From: Desulfobacterales bacterium
GTDB taxonomy: Bacteria; Desulfobacterota; Desulfobacteria; Desulfobacterales; Desulfosalsimonadaceae
Direction: 5' to 3'
DNA length: 43,404 nucleotides
Assembly (NCBI GenBank): GCA_018399235.1
Contig: JAGYOX010000010.1
Span: 1-43,404, forward strand
Program-made: the position numbers and the translations under genes
Notes under the pieces: model-generated
What the model saw: only the letters and a program-made list of their open reading frames with translations
Database searches by the model: none
What the model was told of the DNA's origin: nothing
Shown here: positions 5,736 to 36,432 of the stretch, in pieces
Layout of the letters: each line of letters begins with the position of its first letter
How positions within the stretch are numbered: the first letter of the stretch is position 1

Positions 5736-5889
5736 TCCTATACCTTAAATCCAATACCTTATACCTTATACCTTAAACCTTATACCCTATACCTTAAACC
5801 TTATACCCTATACCTTAAACCTTATACCCTATACCTTAAACCTTATACCCTATACCTTAAACCCTATACCCTATACCTTAAACCCTATT
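5736..5889. repeat. Heptamer array with 21-nt higher-order unit
   Basis: About 22 heptamers of the form CC(T/C)TA(T/A)A. From 5778 to 5861 there are four exact copies of a three-heptamer unit in the order CCTTATA, CCCTATA, CCTTAAA. The phase is unbroken from 5771 to 5889, where the array runs over the sucD stop codon (5885-5887). Read in the plus direction it gives an artefactual YTLYLKP peptide repeat. It separates sucD from sdhC. Confidence 0.9.
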
Positions 5890-6760
5890 CCCCAAACACC
5901 TCAGCGCAAACCTTGCCAATATCCCCCAAGTTTTCGCAGACGGTGACACCGCAGGACCGAAGCTTTTCAATTTTGGCGCCGGCGGTACCGCTGCTGCCGC
6001 TGATGATTGCCCCGGCATGGCCCATACGGCGTCCAGGAGGGGCGGTAATGCCGGCCACAAACCCAACCACCGGTTTGCTGAGATTGGCTTTAATATAATC
6101 CGCGGCATTTTCTTCGGCATTGCCTCCGATTTCACCCACCATAACAACCCCTTTGGTGTCCGGATCTTTTTCAAAAGCGCTCAGGCAGTCAATAAAGTTG
6201 GTCCCGTTGATGGGGTCCCCCCCGATCCCGATGCAGGTCGTCTGGCCCAGCCCCTCACGGGTTAACTGATAAACCACCTCGTAGGTGAGGGTACCGGAAC
6301 GCGAAACTACGCCGATCGGGCCGCCGGGTTTATGAATCGGTCCGGGCATAATTCCTACTTTGGCTTCCCCCGGCGTGATGATGCCCGGGCAGTTCGGCCC
6401 AATCAGCCGGGAACCGGATTGGTTCAATACATGCTTGACACGCGCCATATCCAGCACCGGAATGCCTTCAGTAATGGCCACAATTAATTCAACCCCGGCG
6501 TCAGCGGATTCCATGATCGCATCTGCGGCAAAGGGCGGGGGGACGAATATCATACTGCAATTGGCGCCGGTTTTCTTAACCGCTTGCTTTACTGAATTAA
6601 AAATCGGCACTCCGTCCATATCATTGCCGCCTTTGCCCGGCGTAACCCCGGCCACCACGTTGGTGCCATATAAAATGCACTGGCGGGTGTGAAACTGTCC
6701 TTCTTTTCCCGTAATTCCCTGCACCACCAGTTTGGTATCTGAATTTACAAAAATACTCAT
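5885..6760 (-). CDS. sucD: Succinyl-CoA synthetase alpha subunit
   Basis: A 291-residue subunit that binds CoA and carries the phosphorylated His (His248 in GHAGAIISG) in the reaction succinyl-CoA + NDP + Pi to succinate + NTP + CoA. An N-terminal CoA-binding Rossmann domain (TGKEGQFHT) is followed by the ligase domain. The ATG at 6760 is chosen because GGAG lies 9 nt upstream and the length then matches the family; a GTG five codons earlier is the alternative. It follows sucC by about 30 bp and is presumably translated with it as the usual alpha-beta pair. It yields substrate-level phosphorylation in propionate oxidation. Confidence 0.95.
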
Positions 6761-10380: not shown

Positions 10381-10444
10381 TTAGGTATTGGGTATTATTA
10401 GGTATTAGGTATTAGGTATTAGGTATTAGGTATTGGGTATTAGC
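10381..10444. repeat. Heptamer array, TTAGGTA type
   Basis: Two units (TTAGGTA, TTGGGTA), a 3-nt interruption (TTA), five perfect TTAGGTA, one TTGGGTA and a decayed unit. It lies upstream of the small-subunit gene on the minus strand, in the spacer after mmdA. Confidence 0.85.
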
Positions 10445-10483: not shown

Positions 10484-10518
10484 TCTAGTTTCTAGTTTCC
10501 AGTCTATAGTCTCTAGAC
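10484..10518. repeat. Heptamer array, TCTAGTT type, overlapping mmdA stop
   Basis: TCTAGTT, TCTAGTT, TCCAGTC, TATAGTC, TCTAGAC. The last unit contains the complement of the mmdA stop codon (10513-10515), so the array runs directly into the coding end. Confidence 0.75.
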
Positions 10519-16649: not shown

Positions 16650-16944
16650 AGGTTAAAGGCACTGAGGCACTAAGGCGATTCAGCCGGTTTTGTCATTTCG
16701 AGCGATAGCGAGAAATCTTTTGCTTGAAGATTCCTCGTCCCTGGCGATCCTCGGAATGACAGTGAGTCAACATGCTAAAATAATTGCATATATTGTTAAG
16801 TTTATTGGAAGGCTGAAGCCTTCCGCTACATGGTTATACAAATTTCGTTAAATAGCTAGGAACCGTGAGCCCTGAACCCTAAACCTTATACCTTGCACCT
16901 TGGACATTAAACCTTAAACCTTAAACCGTGAACCGTGAACTTGA
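16650..16944. repeat. Intergenic repeat cluster between tetR and the GspE-type gene
   Basis: The gap 16558-16986 contains AGGCACTG-type octamers (about 16656-16672), an imperfect palindrome (about 16692-16762; TCATTTCGAGCGATAGCGAG paired with a TCCTCGGAATGACA arm), a GGAAGGCT/AGCCTTCC hairpin (16808-16825), and 12 heptamers at 16861-16944 (for example ACCCTAA, ACCTTAT, ACCTTAA x2, ACCGTGA x2). No gene is supported. Confidence 0.75.
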
Positions 16945-16986
16945 AGTTACTTAGAAACGCCTTTGTTCGGATATCTTGGAAAGGGA

Positions 16987-30532: not shown

Positions 30533-31351
30533 ATGACACAAACAGTCAAAATCAACGGATTTTCAATCGGGGGCGGTCATCCCTTTGCGCTGATCTCGGG
30601 TCCGTGCGTGATCGAGAATAGCGAGACACCTTACCGGATTGCCGCATATCTCAAGCAGGTCACCGACAAGCTTGAGATTCCTTACATATTTAAGGCCTCC
30701 TATGACAAAGCCAACCGCACATCCATCCATTCCTTTCGGGGTCCGGGGTTAAAAGAAGGCCTTCAGATTCTGTCCCAAATTCGAAAGGATATCAACGTGC
30801 CCGTGCTCTCTGATGTCCATCAGATTTCAGAGATCGAACCGGCCAGTCGCGTACTTGATGTTATCCAGATACCGGCCTTTCTCTGCCGCCAGACCGACCT
30901 CCTTGTTGAAGCCGCAAAAACCGGGAAACCGATCAATGTAAAAAAAGGGCAGTTTCTATCCCCTTTTGATATGGCAAATGTTGTTGAAAAAATTCGCTAT
31001 ACCGGCAACAATAGAATTCTGATCACGGAGCGCGGCGCAACGTTTGGTTACAATAATCTGGTTTCAGACTTTCGCAGTATCCGAATTATTCAGGAAACCG
31101 GATGTCCGGTAATCTTTGATGCCACTCACAGCGTTCAGCTCCCGGGCGGGGCCGGTTCCTCCTCCGGTGGGCAACGGAAATTTGCTCCTCTCCTTGCAAA
31201 AGCAGCCATAGCCGTTGGAGCCAATGCCATATTCATGGAGGTACACCCGGAACCCGAGAAGGCGCTCTCCGACGGCCCGAATTCGATAAGACTGGATGAT
31301 GTTGAAGAGCTTCTGACACAGCTCAAAAACATCCAGAAGGCCGTGCAATAA
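30533..31351 (+). CDS. kdsA: 3-deoxy-8-phosphooctulonate synthase (KDO-8-P synthase)
   Basis: A 272-residue aldolase condensing phosphoenolpyruvate with arabinose-5-phosphate in lipopolysaccharide core synthesis. Diagnostic blocks are GPCVIENSE, FKASYDKANRTS, SDVHQISE, KKGQFLSPFDM, TERGATFGYNNL and VFMEVHPEPE-like IFMEVHPEPE. The ATG at 30533 is chosen over the upstream frame because of GGAGG. It is first in the kds-lpt-rpoN block. Confidence 0.96.
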   Translation: MTQTVKINGFSIGGGHPFALISGPCVIENSETPYRIAAYLKQVTDKLEIPYIFKASYDKANRTSIHSFRGPGLKEGLQILSQIRKDINVPVLSDVHQISEIEPASRVLDVIQIPAFLCRQTDLLVEAAKTGKPINVKKGQFLSPFDMANVVEKIRYTGNNRILITERGATFGYNNLVSDFRSIRIIQETGCPVIFDATHSVQLPGGAGSSSGGQRKFAPLLAKAAIAVGANAIFMEVHPEPEKALSDGPNSIRLDDVEELLTQLKNIQKAVQ

Positions 31352-31353
31352 AA

Positions 31354-31388
31354 GGGGAAAGGGGAAAGGGGAAAGGGGAAAGGGGAAA
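31354..31388 (+). repeat. GGGGAAA x5 array between kdsA and kdsC
   Basis: Five perfect GGGGAAA heptamers fill the spacer from 31354 to 31388 and end one base before the ATG of kdsC (31390). The last AAAGGGG is the only Shine-Dalgarno-like sequence for kdsC. Confidence 0.9.
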
Positions 31389-31389
31389 G

Positions 31390-31905
31390 ATGACGACAAG
31401 CCGGCTTCAAAAAATTAGGCTTCTGCTGCTCGATGTCGACGGGGTATTAACCGACGGATCGATTATCTATACGGATAACCAAACGGAAACAAAAGTGTTC
31501 CATGCAAGAGATGGACTGGGTATTAAAATGCTTCACCAGGGGGGCATAAAAACGGGTATCATTACCGGCCGTTCATCCCCCGCCCTTCTGCGCCGATGCA
31601 GGGAACTTGGCTTTGATATGGTCTTTGATGGCATCCAGGACAAGTTAGAAGTCCTGGATCAGATTGTCTCGGACACCGGTTATAATACAAATGAAATCGC
31701 CTTTATCGGTGACGACCTGCCCGATCTTCCGCTACTTAAAAAAGTCGGTTTGGCAATAGCGGTTGCCGACGCGAACCGTCTTGTTTGTCAGCATGCAGAC
31801 ATAATAACTGTGACTGGAGGCGGTCGGGGCGCAGTGCGCGAGGTCTGCGAAATGATATTGAAGGCACAGGGCATCTGGGAAAAGCTGGTGGAGCAGTGGA
31901 TATAA
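31390..31905 (+). CDS. kdsC: KDO-8-phosphate phosphatase
   Basis: A 171-residue HAD-superfamily phosphatase (C0 type) that releases phosphate from KDO-8-P. The nucleophile motif is LLDVDGVLTDG (Asp15, Asp17), the second motif is IITGRSS, and the third is IAFIGDDLPDLPLL. It begins directly after the GGGGAAA array. Confidence 0.95.
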   Translation: MTTSRLQKIRLLLLDVDGVLTDGSIIYTDNQTETKVFHARDGLGIKMLHQGGIKTGIITGRSSPALLRRCRELGFDMVFDGIQDKLEVLDQIVSDTGYNTNEIAFIGDDLPDLPLLKKVGLAIAVADANRLVCQHADIITVTGGGRGAVREVCEMILKAQGIWEKLVEQWI

Positions 31906-31909
31906 ACAA

Positions 31910-32494
31910 TTGAGGCGTACGACAATCATTAAAATCTTTTTGGCGGGTTCGGCAATAGTCCTTCTAGCCTGTCTGTTGACATTTTCTTTAAAATACCAAA
32001 TAACAACGGATACCCCGCAAAAACAGAGCACGCCGGATGAAACGGACGCTGAGCTTTCCATCAACCGTTTTCACCATACCGCCACCCGTGAAGGCAAAAC
32101 CCAATGGACTTTAAATGCCGCTTCAGCCGAGTTTTTCTCCGATAGCAACCGGGTCCGGCTAACCGATCTCAGCGTCGTATTTCTCCCCCATTCCCCACAA
32201 TCTAAAACGAACTTAACAGCTGACAGCGGTGTTCTTGATGTAAATACCCATGACATGAGTATCTCCGGAAATATTATAGTCAAAAATCGCCAGTACCAGC
32301 TTAAAACCGAATCCTTGCATTACTCTCATGAGTCGCATATAATATCAACAAATAAGCCCGTAGATATTGCCGGGCCGGCAGTTCAACTAAGAGCGGACAC
32401 AATGACTGTCGATCTGACGGATGGGCATATGGAATGTAAAGGCCATGTAAAAGGAACAATAATTGTATCTGAATCTTTTCAAACCATCGATTAA
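31910..32494 (+). CDS. lptC: LPS export ABC transporter periplasmic protein LptC
   Basis: A 194-residue bitopic protein. One N-terminal transmembrane helix (about residues 5-25) is followed by a beta-jellyroll LptC domain (LTADSGVLDVNTHDMSISG; PVDIAGPAVQLRADTMTVDL). It links LptB-containing ATPase complexes to the LptA bridge that carries LPS to the outer membrane. The start codon is TTG, with only a weak ribosome-binding site, so it probably depends on coupling with kdsC (4-bp gap). Confidence 0.88.
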   Translation: MRRTTIIKIFLAGSAIVLLACLLTFSLKYQITTDTPQKQSTPDETDAELSINRFHHTATREGKTQWTLNAASAEFFSDSNRVRLTDLSVVFLPHSPQSKTNLTADSGVLDVNTHDMSISGNIIVKNRQYQLKTESLHYSHESHIISTNKPVDIAGPAVQLRADTMTVDLTDGHMECKGHVKGTIIVSESFQTID

Positions 32495-33050
32495 ACTGCT
32501 TTTTGCGGGATTGCTGTTTATCTTTTCGATTTGTTCGGCCTGGCAGAACTCCATTTACGCTGCCATGCCTGAGGGCTCAGAGTTTAAAACAACAAACACC
32601 AAAATCCATATTCGTGCGGATAAACTTGTATCCCAGCGAGAATCGAATTATATTCATTTTATAGGAAATGTAAGTGTTGACGTAGACACGACACAAATCA
32701 ATTCATCGGAATTAAAAGTTTTTTATGAACAGGTGCCGGCTTCCGGGACGTCCATGACAAACGAAAATATAAAAAAAATTACAGCCTCCGGCAATGTGAA
32801 AATTTATTTTGATAACCGGACGGCGCAATGCGATCAAGCAATTTATAAGACCGAGACGCAAATATTGGTACTGACCGGCGAGAAGGTTGAAGTCAGAAGC
32901 GAGGGCAATTCAATCACCGGCAATAAAATCACTTTTAATCAAAAAACAGGAGAAATAATCGTTGACGGCAACAAGGGGCAACGCGTAAATGCGATAATTC
33001 ACCGAAATGAAAAAAATCCTGAAACCGAAAACGGGATGAATCAACCATAA
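32463..33050 (+). CDS. lptA: LPS export periplasmic bridge protein LptA
   Basis: A 195-residue protein with a signal peptide (hydrophobic core about residues 11-25, cleavage near AMPEG) and an OstA-type repeated beta-jellyroll (KIHIRADKLVSQRESNYIHF; GNVKIYFDNRTAQCDQAIYK). It forms the periplasmic bridge for LPS. It starts at a TTG with AAGGA 7 nt upstream and overlaps lptC by 32 bp. Confidence 0.88.
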   Translation: MYLNLFKPSIKLLFAGLLFIFSICSAWQNSIYAAMPEGSEFKTTNTKIHIRADKLVSQRESNYIHFIGNVSVDVDTTQINSSELKVFYEQVPASGTSMTNENIKKITASGNVKIYFDNRTAQCDQAIYKTETQILVLTGEKVEVRSEGNSITGNKITFNQKTGEIIVDGNKGQRVNAIIHRNEKNPETENGMNQP

Positions 33051-33057
33051 TCCGGCA

Positions 33058-33780
33058 ATGACTGTTCTTTCGCTAAAAAAACTGGTTAAAATATATAATG
33101 GCAAACGGGTCGTTGATGCAGTCGATATTAACATTCACAGCGGCGGAATCTTCGGGTTGCTCGGCCCAAACGGCGCTGGTAAAACAACCACTTTCTATAT
33201 GACGGTGGGAATAATCAAGCCGGAAAAGGGCGATGTTTTTCTTGATAATGAAAAAATTACCGGTTACCCAATGCATTTGCGAGCGCGAAAAGGACTTGGC
33301 TATTTGCCCCAGGAGCCTTCTGTTTTCGGCAAATTGACGGTTTATCAAAATATCATGGCAATACTGGAGACTTTGCCGCTGAACAAGCATGAGCAACGGA
33401 GAAAAGCCGAGGCATTGCTAAACGAATTAGGCATCCATCGGCTGATGAAACAAAAGGCCGGGCTGTTATCCGGCGGTGAACGCAGGCGCTTGGAAATCTC
33501 GCGGGCGCTTGCCACAGACCCCAGTTTTATATTGCTTGATGAACCATTTGCCGGCATTGACCCATTGGCTGTCATCGATATTCAAAATATTATTCGGCAC
33601 CTTTCCGATAGGGGAATCGGTGTTCTGATCTCTGATCATAATGTAAGAGAAACCTTAGGCGTTTGTGACCAGGCATACATCCTGAATAACGGACAGATCA
33701 TCGAATCCGGAACGCCGGATTCGATAGCCGCCAGTCCGACGGCAAGACAAATTTATCTGGGCGATCATTTTAAACTCTGA
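33058..33780 (+). CDS. lptB: LPS export ABC transporter ATPase LptB
   Basis: A 240-residue ABC ATPase that powers LPS extraction from the inner membrane with LptF/G, which are not in this window. Walker A is GPNGAGKT (36-43), the signature LSGGERRRLEIS, and Walker B ILLDEPFAGIDP. The position between lptA and rpoN is the classic proteobacterial order. Confidence 0.96.
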   Translation: MTVLSLKKLVKIYNGKRVVDAVDINIHSGGIFGLLGPNGAGKTTTFYMTVGIIKPEKGDVFLDNEKITGYPMHLRARKGLGYLPQEPSVFGKLTVYQNIMAILETLPLNKHEQRRKAEALLNELGIHRLMKQKAGLLSGGERRRLEISRALATDPSFILLDEPFAGIDPLAVIDIQNIIRHLSDRGIGVLISDHNVRETLGVCDQAYILNNGQIIESGTPDSIAASPTARQIYLGDHFKL

Positions 33781-33781
33781 T

Positions 33782-35203
33782 ATGGCACTTGAACTTCAAC
33801 AAAATCTTAAACTGCAGCAGCAACTGGTGATGACCCCACAGCTGCAGATGGCGATTAAACTGCTTCAGCTATCCCATATGGAACTGCTGGAAATGATCCA
33901 GCAGGAGCTTGAAACCAACCCGACCCTGGAAGAAGATCAAGAGATTGAAACCGAACAGGCGCCGGAGCCTTCCTCCCAGGAAGAACAATCCCCCCAGGAA
34001 GTATCTGTAGAAGAAAAATTCGATGAGTTTGCCGATTGGCAGAATTATATGGATGAATTTAATTCGGTCGGAAAGGTACACTTTGAATCCGAAAAAAAGG
34101 AGGCCCCTGATTACGAAGCCTTTACGGCCAGCAAGACGTCACTTGCCGACCATCTGCGATGGCAGCTTTTGATGACCAAACCCACGGAAGAAGAAGAAAC
34201 CATTGGCAGCTATATTATAGGGAATATCAATGAAGACGGATATTTAGATATTACCGTGGATGAACTCTCCCAACTTGCCGGCGCGACAATTGAAAAGATC
34301 GAGCAGGTGCTATCGTTAATGCAAACATTTGACCCGCCGGGCATTTGTGCCAGAGACTTAAAAGAATGCCTCCTCATCCAGCTCAACCAACTGGGCATTG
34401 ATGATCCCCTTATTGTCCAGATCATCTCCAACCATTTAAAAGATCTTGAAAATAGACGCTATAAAATAATTGCAAAGGCAACCAATGCGAACCTGAATGA
34501 TATCGGCGCCGCAGTTAACGTAATTAAACAGCTTGATCCCAAACCCGGAGACAAGTTTTCGGAAAATGATCAGATATACATTGTCCCCGATGTATACGTT
34601 TACAAATATGAAGATGATTTTGTGATTTTACTCAACGATGATGACATGCCCAGGATACAGATCAACTCCTATTATAAAAATGCGGCGAAAAAAGGCGAAA
34701 GCATATCCGCGGAAGCCAAAAATTACCTTAAAGACCGGCTTCGGTCGGCTGAGTGGCTGATTAAAAGCATCCAGCATCGACAAAAAACCATATATAATGT
34801 CATGAAAAGCATCGTTAAATTTCAACGCGATTTTTTTGAACACGGCATATCACACTTAAAACCGCTGGTGCTTCGTGACGTCGCCGATGACATCGAAATG
34901 CATGAATCAACTATCAGCCGCGTCACGAATAATAAATATGCCTATACGCCGCAGGGCATATATGAACTGAAGTTTTTCTTTAACAGTTCGATAAACCGTT
35001 CTCATGGAGAAACCATTGCATCGGCCAGTGTTCAGGAAGAAATACGTAAAATTATAGAAACAGAAAATCCGAAAAAGCCCTACAGCGACAAAAAGATAAC
35101 CGAAATGCTAAAAGATCGTGATATCGACATTGCCCGCCGAACCGTTGCAAAATACAGAGAAAACTTAGGGATCCTGCCATCAGGTAAACGGAAACAATTT
35201 TAG
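33782..35203 (+). CDS. rpoN: RNA polymerase sigma-54 factor
   Basis: A 473-residue protein. Region I is Gln/Leu-rich (LQQNLKLQQQLVMTPQLQMA), which receives the activator signal. An acidic region II (about residues 50-95) follows, then the core-binding region III, and DNA-binding motifs: a helix-turn-helix with HESTISRVTNNKYAYTPQG, and the RpoN box as ARRTVAKYREN. It directs transcription at -24/-12 promoters together with activators such as the NtrC-like protein at 23374. Its ATG follows the lptB stop by one base. Confidence 0.96.
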   Translation: MALELQQNLKLQQQLVMTPQLQMAIKLLQLSHMELLEMIQQELETNPTLEEDQEIETEQAPEPSSQEEQSPQEVSVEEKFDEFADWQNYMDEFNSVGKVHFESEKKEAPDYEAFTASKTSLADHLRWQLLMTKPTEEEETIGSYIIGNINEDGYLDITVDELSQLAGATIEKIEQVLSLMQTFDPPGICARDLKECLLIQLNQLGIDDPLIVQIISNHLKDLENRRYKIIAKATNANLNDIGAAVNVIKQLDPKPGDKFSENDQIYIVPDVYVYKYEDDFVILLNDDDMPRIQINSYYKNAAKKGESISAEAKNYLKDRLRSAEWLIKSIQHRQKTIYNVMKSIVKFQRDFFEHGISHLKPLVLRDVADDIEMHESTISRVTNNKYAYTPQGIYELKFFFNSSINRSHGETIASASVQEEIRKIIETENPKKPYSDKKITEMLKDRDIDIARRTVAKYRENLGILPSGKRKQF

Positions 35204-36344: not shown

Positions 36345-36432
36345 GGTTAAAGGCACTGAGGCACTGAGGCACTAAGTTTATGTTTTTTTTACCTTATACC
36401 TTAAACCTTGTACCTTATACCCTATACCTTTT
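36345..36432. repeat. Octamer and heptamer arrays before rapZ
   Basis: AGGCACTG, AGGCACTG, AGGCACTA at 36351-36374, then heptamers ACCTTAT, ACCTTAA, ACCTTGT, ACCTTAT, ACCCTAT at 36391-36425, ending near the rapZ start. Confidence 0.8.

Follow-up and report, generated by a model that had tools for sequence, protein, structure and literature searches.

The genome of a Desulfobacterales bacterium (GCA_018399235.1) carries five perfect copies of the heptamer GGGGAAA in the short space between the lipopolysaccharide-sugar genes kdsA and kdsC, which raises the question of whether such an array is a device that sets kdsC translation or a by-product of repeat expansion. The initial annotation of contig JAGYOX010000010.1 (43,404 nt analysed as a whole, hereafter the window) proposed that the array doubles as the Shine-Dalgarno (SD) sequence of kdsC and that gain or loss of units could tune KDO synthesis. 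The evidence presented here leads to another emphasis: the array resembles a by-product of repeat expansion more than it does a device dedicated to tuning. Our main reading, to which we give a probability of about 0.6, is a slippage expansion of a heptamer of a known kind, the last unit of which serves kdsC as SD, with extra units that are near-neutral.

The kdsA–kdsC Junction

The array is preceded by kdsA (30533–31351, forward strand, as for all features of this junction and operon), which encodes a 3-deoxy-8-phosphooctulonate synthase (NF003543, E = 2e-125, over cut-off) and ends with a TAA at 31349–31351. It is followed by kdsC (31390–31905), encoding a KDO-8-phosphate phosphatase that matches the subfamily model TIGR01670 over its cut-off (E = 8.6e-50), whereas the equivalog model NF007019 of NCBIfam gives an E value of 8.6e-52 yet stays below its own cut-off. 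Downstream lie lptC (31910–32494; TIGR04409, over cut-off), an lptA-like gene (32463–33050; TIGR03002, E = 1.7e-18, 66.9 bits, under the cut-off of 71.7), lptB (33058–33780; TIGR04406, over cut-off) and rpoN, encoding sigma-54 (33782–35203; TIGR02395, over cut-off). The starts of lptC and of the lptA-like gene are mechanical ORF starts; with such starts, kdsC and lptC are 4 nt apart, the lptA-like gene overlaps lptC, and gaps of 7 nt and 1 nt precede lptB and rpoN. The genes from kdsA to rpoN therefore probably form one operon, within which the 38 nt between kdsA and kdsC are the widest gap. The C-terminus of KdsA matches that of G001, a genome of the same genus, and the kdsA stop is thus safe from being an artefact created by the array. 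The N-terminus of KdsC is of equal length in G001 and in G003, also of the same genus, and the start lies 14 codons ahead of the DVDGV motif in 24 of 30 kdsC loci, a distance favoured by the rule used to select starts.

The five units, all perfect, occupy 31354–31388 and are followed by a single G at 31389 and by the kdsC ATG at 31390, so that the array does end one base before the start codon, as first described. Tandem Repeats Finder (TRF) delimits the period-7 tract with its flanks at 31351–31389 (AAAGGGG, 5.6 copies, 100% match). The first GGGG is located 2 nt past the kdsA TAA, and the array and its flanking bases fill the whole 38-nt gap. With up to two mismatches, the 14-mer GGGGAAAGGGGAAA has five matches in the window, four of them inside the array, whereas none of 100 shuffled windows had at least five (maximum three); the array exceeds chance expectation.

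A Genome-Wide Family of Heptamer Arrays

Arrays of this period are widespread in the genome. A discovery sample of 56 stretches (551,099 bases, window included) contained 67 exact arrays of period 7 with at least 2.5 copies, in excess of periods 5, 6, 8, and 9 (12, 17, 7, and 0, respectively). Period 4 yielded 97 arrays at this threshold, but only 3, against 39 for period 7, when at least three copies were demanded. As many as 59 of the 67 were intergenic, using ORFs as a proxy of genes (88% of the bases coding). In a sample enlarged by 20 stretches, which covers 942,824 bases or 27% of the assembly, TRF delineated 106 arrays after merging, with periods of 7, 14, or 21; their units vary widely around the profile GGT(A/T)TA(A/G). 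GGGGAAA is the eighth commonest unit among them, with 18 copies. It is found within the GGTATAA arrays L222 and L228, behind two stops of 109-codon frames, and beside GGTATAA in the C9 array. Since GGGGAAA units mix into GGTATAA arrays, the kdsC array is a sequence variant of the genome-wide family.

Apart from the junction, TRF found period-7 arrays in the window at 2081–2117 (TTAAGGT), 5737–5892 (ATACCTT), 10396–10443 (TATTAGG), 16873–16945 (AACCTTA), and 36390–36430 (TACCTTA). An octamer-type repeat is also present in three copies, TGCCTCAG, AAGGCACT, and AGGCACTG (2138–2158, 16656–16676, and 36351–36373), all near a heptamer array. A palindrome-like stretch, TCATTTCGAGCG...GAGAAATC...GGAATGACAG, at about 16700–16800 resembles by eye a sequence at locus L238 of G001 and is perhaps a dispersed repeat. 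In G001, what follows the two GGGGAAA arrays at L238 (C193) and L235 (C82) is similar by eye, first GATGCAAGGTTTAAGG... and then about 100 bp in common, indicating that a GGGGAAA array can belong to a larger dispersed repeat. At L044 (5941–6429), a gap of more than 500 bp harbors GGGTTTA arrays of up to nine exact copies, a unit resembling that of plant telomeres, and then TATACCC arrays in inverted orientation.

Placement Relative to Stops and Starts

The position of the kdsC array, close behind a stop codon and with its G-rich strand sense, recurs in the family. In a first count, based on ORFs of at least 90 codons with overlaps allowed, 16 of 65 arrays began within 10 nt past a stop (2.7 expected), 14 of which were counted as sense. 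As arrays bearing TAA can create a stop themselves, the placement was re-tested with a stricter rule (ORFs of at least 150 amino acids, arrays overlapping the ORF by at most 2 nt). Nine of 64 discovery arrays were then found within 10 nt behind a stop against 1.6 expected (eight sense, none antisense, one even), and five of 28 in the hold-out set against 0.8 expected (P = 0.001; five sense, none antisense). Taken together, 14 of 92 arrays obey the rule where 2.4 were expected, an enrichment of about six-fold, and their G-rich strand is sense in 13, antisense in none, and even in one. The 10-nt limit was set from the discovery set, gene ends are ORF proxies, and the stop codons that some arrays bear themselves can inflate the rule. 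Of the arrays lying in gaps in the small samples of the two congeners, none was found within 10 nt behind a stop (0/1 in G001 and 0/10 in G003). The kdsA–kdsC array fits the rule, and the kdsA stop fixes its position as much as the kdsC start does.

The genes preceding such arrays are of many kinds. Ten frames flanking arrays, including three whose stop lies inside the array (L050, L201, and window 5885), all matched Pfam families, each of a different kind: CheA-like kinase, trypsin-like PDZ protease, molybdopterin oxidoreductase, cytidylyltransferase, AAA ATPase, radical SAM, 2-hydroxyglutaryl-CoA dehydratase, SPOR, PEP carboxykinase, and CoA ligase. These frames are therefore real genes and do not belong to one pathway. 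Among the seven GGGGAAA arrays found, four are in sense orientation and follow a long ORF, 2–7 nt behind its stop. In the host genome, these ORFs are kdsA and a gene for a DAHP synthase-prephenate dehydratase; in relatives, they are PhoU and YceG genes. A link of GGGGAAA arrays with KDO/DAHP synthases, suggested by two of the three arrays of the host genome, was thus dismissed as a coincidence.

An attraction of arrays to start codons was likewise considered and discarded. The discovery set showed an excess near starts (17 of 65 against 8.3 expected in one count, 12 of 64 against 5.0 within 30 nt in the re-test), but the hold-out set did not reproduce it (within 30 nt, 3 of 28 with 2.3 expected), and TAA-rich arrays cut frames and shift apparent starts. 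Arrays within 30 nt of a start were mostly antisense (eight against four sense in the discovery set, two against one in the hold-out set), whereas the kdsC array is near its start in sense orientation. Six of the 106 arrays, that of kdsC included, have a G-rich sense strand and end no more than 15 nt ahead of an ATG that begins a frame of at least 100 codons, the five ATGs besides that of kdsC being candidate starts; at L243, the end of the array merges into AAGGAGGT before such an ATG. An array that doubles as a ribosome site is thus uncommon, though perhaps not confined to kdsC.

The Last Unit as a Plausible Shine-Dalgarno Sequence

GGAG is enriched 15.5-fold before starts in the sampled genes, and the genome therefore uses the usual SD mechanism. 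The duplex of AAGGGG with the anti-SD was computed with the canonical 16S tail and is predicted at -7.8 kcal/mol, a value exceeded in strength by 28% of 342 sampled genes; by eye, AAGGGG and this tail form six pairs, one of them G-U. A search for the 16S tail of the genus retrieved no 16S sequence in the four same-genus genomes searched, and only a partial one, devoid of the tail, in 1 of 36 genomes of the family.

Spacing is less favourable. In the genome, GGAG lies most often 7–8 nt before the start, and at 4 nt or less in only 6 of 133 sites, at 11 nt in 5, and at 18 nt or more in 3. The AAGGGG of the last unit (31380–31385) is 4 nt from the kdsC ATG and that of the fourth unit (31373–31378), a second candidate SD, is 11 nt away. 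The initial annotation regarded the last G block as the only ribosome-binding-like sequence, a view that does not hold since the five blocks are identical and two of them are within reach of the ATG. AAGGGG thus offers the pairing with the 16S tail without the usual spacing, and the role attributed to the array survives in part: its last AAGGGG is a plausible and usable SD for kdsC, albeit with a spacing off the optimum and rare in this genome. In addition, ribosomes that have reached the kdsA stop may restart on kdsC.

An SD of this strength is not a common feature of kdsC. The gene was compared at 30 loci, the present one included, from 30 of the 55 genomes with a match and with starts set by rule; only three loci reach -7.8 kcal/mol (the host genome, G001, and L025), eight reach -4.5 kcal/mol, and 22 are weaker (median -0.9). 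Of the other 28 kdsC loci, 22 have little or no SD. A different ribosome-binding site conserved in relatives lacking the array, which would have spoken against the proposed role, was looked for in the 30 loci and was not found.

History of the Junction in Relatives

In G001, the junction consists of the TAA, 17 nt, and the ATG, and contains two AAGGGGA units, of which one is intact and the other degenerate. The host gap is 21 bp longer, i.e., exactly three units (five against two), and the last AAGGGGAAAG is retained in G001. The gain or loss of units that was initially supposed is therefore seen as a difference of three between two genomes of one genus, one of the two units of G001 being degenerate. 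The G003 gap is 28 nt long and of unlike sequence. By eye, a KdsA-like end precedes kdsC in 29 of the 30 loci (the exception being L027), as located by a loose motif search in the upstream frame. Because the SD is mostly weak elsewhere and is shared with G001, it probably originated along with the heptamer in the lineage of these two genomes, before the expansion. The retention of AAGGGG proves little by itself, given that only two species carry it at this junction.

Other arrays of the window are also variable. Those at 10396, 16873, and 36390 correspond to syntenic gaps of G001 with a much shorter spacer and without array, whereas a weak TCTAGTC/CTAGTTT-type array (10484–10516) has a repetitive but rearranged counterpart at the same place; some arrays, though not all, thus come and go between congeners. 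Arrays were less dense in the samples of the other genomes: exact arrays of at least 2.5 copies numbered 38 in 237,653 bases of the host genome, 1 in 109,968 of G001, 8 in 200,000 of G003, and 0–2 in each other genome, sampled over 2.9 to 40 kb, with one genome of the order (G041) read as all N. Conservation of the GGGGAAA array across the order was rejected, as, among 291 genomes sampled from the order, (GGGGAAA)3 was present in only 4, each belonging to the host family. The reverse-strand count of (GGGGAAA)3 was zero; as the complementary pattern led to the same six places in the host genome, this zero was taken as a chance effect of contig orientation.

Competing Explanations

The five G4 tracts with AAA loops (31354–31385) give the array the top G4Hunter score of the window on either strand, and an intramolecular G-quadruplex is predicted in the mRNA and in the non-template DNA. 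With the G-quadruplex option of ViennaRNA, the folding energy of the junction falls from -29.4 to -63.1 kcal/mol and that of G001 is unchanged; no quadruplex is predicted with up to three units, whereas four or five give one that contributes about 34 kcal/mol. This structure, overlooked at first, would alter the effect of unit number on kdsC. It could act as an RNA gate, the four-layer fold covering or crowding the SD until it is melted by ribosomes that complete kdsA, which would tie kdsC translation to that of kdsA. Such a gate would accord with the very high stability in vitro of comparable DNA repeats of Nostoc, of which (GGGGACT)4 and (GGGGATT)4 oligonucleotides give quadruplex spectra and, among the oligonucleotides described, three that contain four-G tracts stayed folded up to more than 95°C (PMC4692102), and with the reduced translation caused by a quadruplex 20 bp before a start (Holder and Hartig, as told in PMC11087576). 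A quadruplex farther upstream of the ribosome site increased translation, and the reported effects thus run both ways with distance (PMC11087576). By a rough estimate from a crude energy model, the last block is free in 57, 26, and 50% of cases at one, two, and three units, 0% at four, 40% at five, 28% at six, 24% at seven, and 0% at eight, its burial being restricted to 4, 8, or 12 units. Since 40% falls within the range of one to three units (26–57%), the natural five units should not, on this model, clearly reduce access to the SD. Moreover, a G3+ quadruplex motif occurs in only 11 of the 106 arrays and four G4 tracts in 2, and the heptamer family is therefore not maintained for quadruplex formation. 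We regard the gate as unlikely. The kdsC array could nonetheless be special, since none of the other six GGGGAAA arrays has as many G4 tracts, a point that counts against our main reading. The only other array of the sampled genome with four G4 tracts is L005 (genome G000, contig C277, about 1494–1530); it sits behind the DAHP synthase-prephenate dehydratase gene, whose family is akin to that of kdsA.

Tuning by slippage, as first proposed, would have a unit number that varies in the population set the output of kdsC through more or fewer ribosome sites. The three-unit difference between two species and the presence of two candidate sites close enough to the ATG (4 and 11 nt) are in its favour, but any unit past the second is at least 18 nt from the ATG, where GGAG is rare, the kdsC site is weaker than -4.5 kcal/mol in 22 of 30 loci, and arrays lie behind genes of many kinds, all of which makes this tuning very improbable. 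Even less credit can be given to the idea that a regulator of translation (S1, a cold-shock protein, or a CsrA-like protein) binds the array, as proposed for the TAACTGA repeats of Beggiatoaceae. The period and the position abutting the start are the same in both systems (PMC4679880), and the six sense arrays close to candidate ATGs would fit; yet the start-proximal excess vanished in the hold-out set, and the widely varying units were taken to speak against one binding protein, so that we consider this reading extremely unlikely.

A slippage expansion with a fortuitously placed last unit thus remains our preferred reading. The unit type AAGGGGA, drawn from the genome-wide intergenic family, would have expanded by replication slippage in this lineage. 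The array begins directly past the kdsA stop with its G-rich strand in the mRNA, as part of the family does, and, because the kdsA–kdsC gap is short, it would have come to fill this gap and reach kdsC. The last unit, probably older than the expansion, would serve as a usable but badly spaced SD, and, as regards kdsC, the additional units are most probably neutral or close to it. A device dedicated to KDO synthesis is not supported, as similar arrays stand behind unrelated genes and the kdsA stop also sets the position. The kdsC array is thus ordinary in kind, and the most interesting by-product of its analysis is the replicated placement rule.

Comparison with Known Heptamer Repeats

Among the literature matches listed, considered by titles, abstract starts, and term counts and with subscription journals mostly outside, no report of heptamer arrays in Desulfobacterales was noticed, and the best 10 of 104 matches did not include kdsC or kdsA. 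Tandem heptanucleotides are known from Calothrix (named in PMC4692102). They are labelled STRR and, as in the host genome, comprise several heptamer units per genome.

Other systems share one or another trait with the present one. In marine Beggiatoaceae, TAACTGA direct repeats abut start codons and have little SD character (MacGregor, 2015, PMC4679880). Both are heptamers that adjoin start codons and overlap the ribosome-binding region, but Beggiatoaceae use one fixed unit, whereas many variants occur here and GGGGAAA, the unit given by TRF at kdsC instead of TAACTGA, has SD character. Geobacter metallireducens presents 49 elements of four repeats with the consensus GGACCGG, as well as MTYCTGA in five repeats; they are interpreted there as predicted RNA elements with a regulatory role or as sites for regulators (PMC2700814). 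Tandem heptamers in four or five copies and many per genome are common to both organisms, although the units differ and the GGACCGG elements are found both within and between genes (PMC2700814). In Moraxella, repeats in the 5′ UTR of uspA1 and uspA2 affect expression by experiment (as told in PMC4679880); there too, the repeat number varies upstream of a start codon, but these genes encode surface proteins with measured expression, whereas the kdsC array occupies an intercistronic gap.

The closest likeness is with the G-rich heptamer repeats GGGAATC of Xanthomonas and GGGGA(C/T)T of Nostoc (Rehm et al., 2015, PMC4692102). They are located downstream of ORFs, mostly 0–50 bp past the stop and on the coding strand, coding-strand repeats being farther from start codons, and a regulatory role could not be identified for them in that study (PMC4692102). 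Both families have 7-base units, are genome-wide and mostly intergenic, vary in unit number between relatives, and lie on the coding strand close past stops, beside neighbours of mixed function (PMC4692102). The kdsC array shares with them at least four foldable G-tracts (five, with a predicted fold), and GGGGAAA differs from the GGGGATT of Nostoc by two bases. On the other hand, the usual unit here, GGT(A/T)TA(A/G), mostly lacks a G3+ quadruplex motif, and the kdsC array adjoins a start codon on the sense strand. One might speculate, although we find it quite unlikely, that sense G-rich arrays arise independently behind stops in Xanthomonas, Nostoc, and this genus because the transcript has just been cleared of ribosomes there, the non-template G-rich strand or an RNA-DNA hybrid promoting slippage, and that a short gap then yields a quadruplex-bearing ribosome site with non-monotonic output; the kdsC site would then be buried at four and eight units and partly free at five to seven. 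In any case, a further lineage with multiplied heptamers that obey the behind-stop sense rule of Xanthomonas and Nostoc hints at a common cause, and the kdsA–kdsC junction provides a natural test case of an array landing on a ribosome-binding site.
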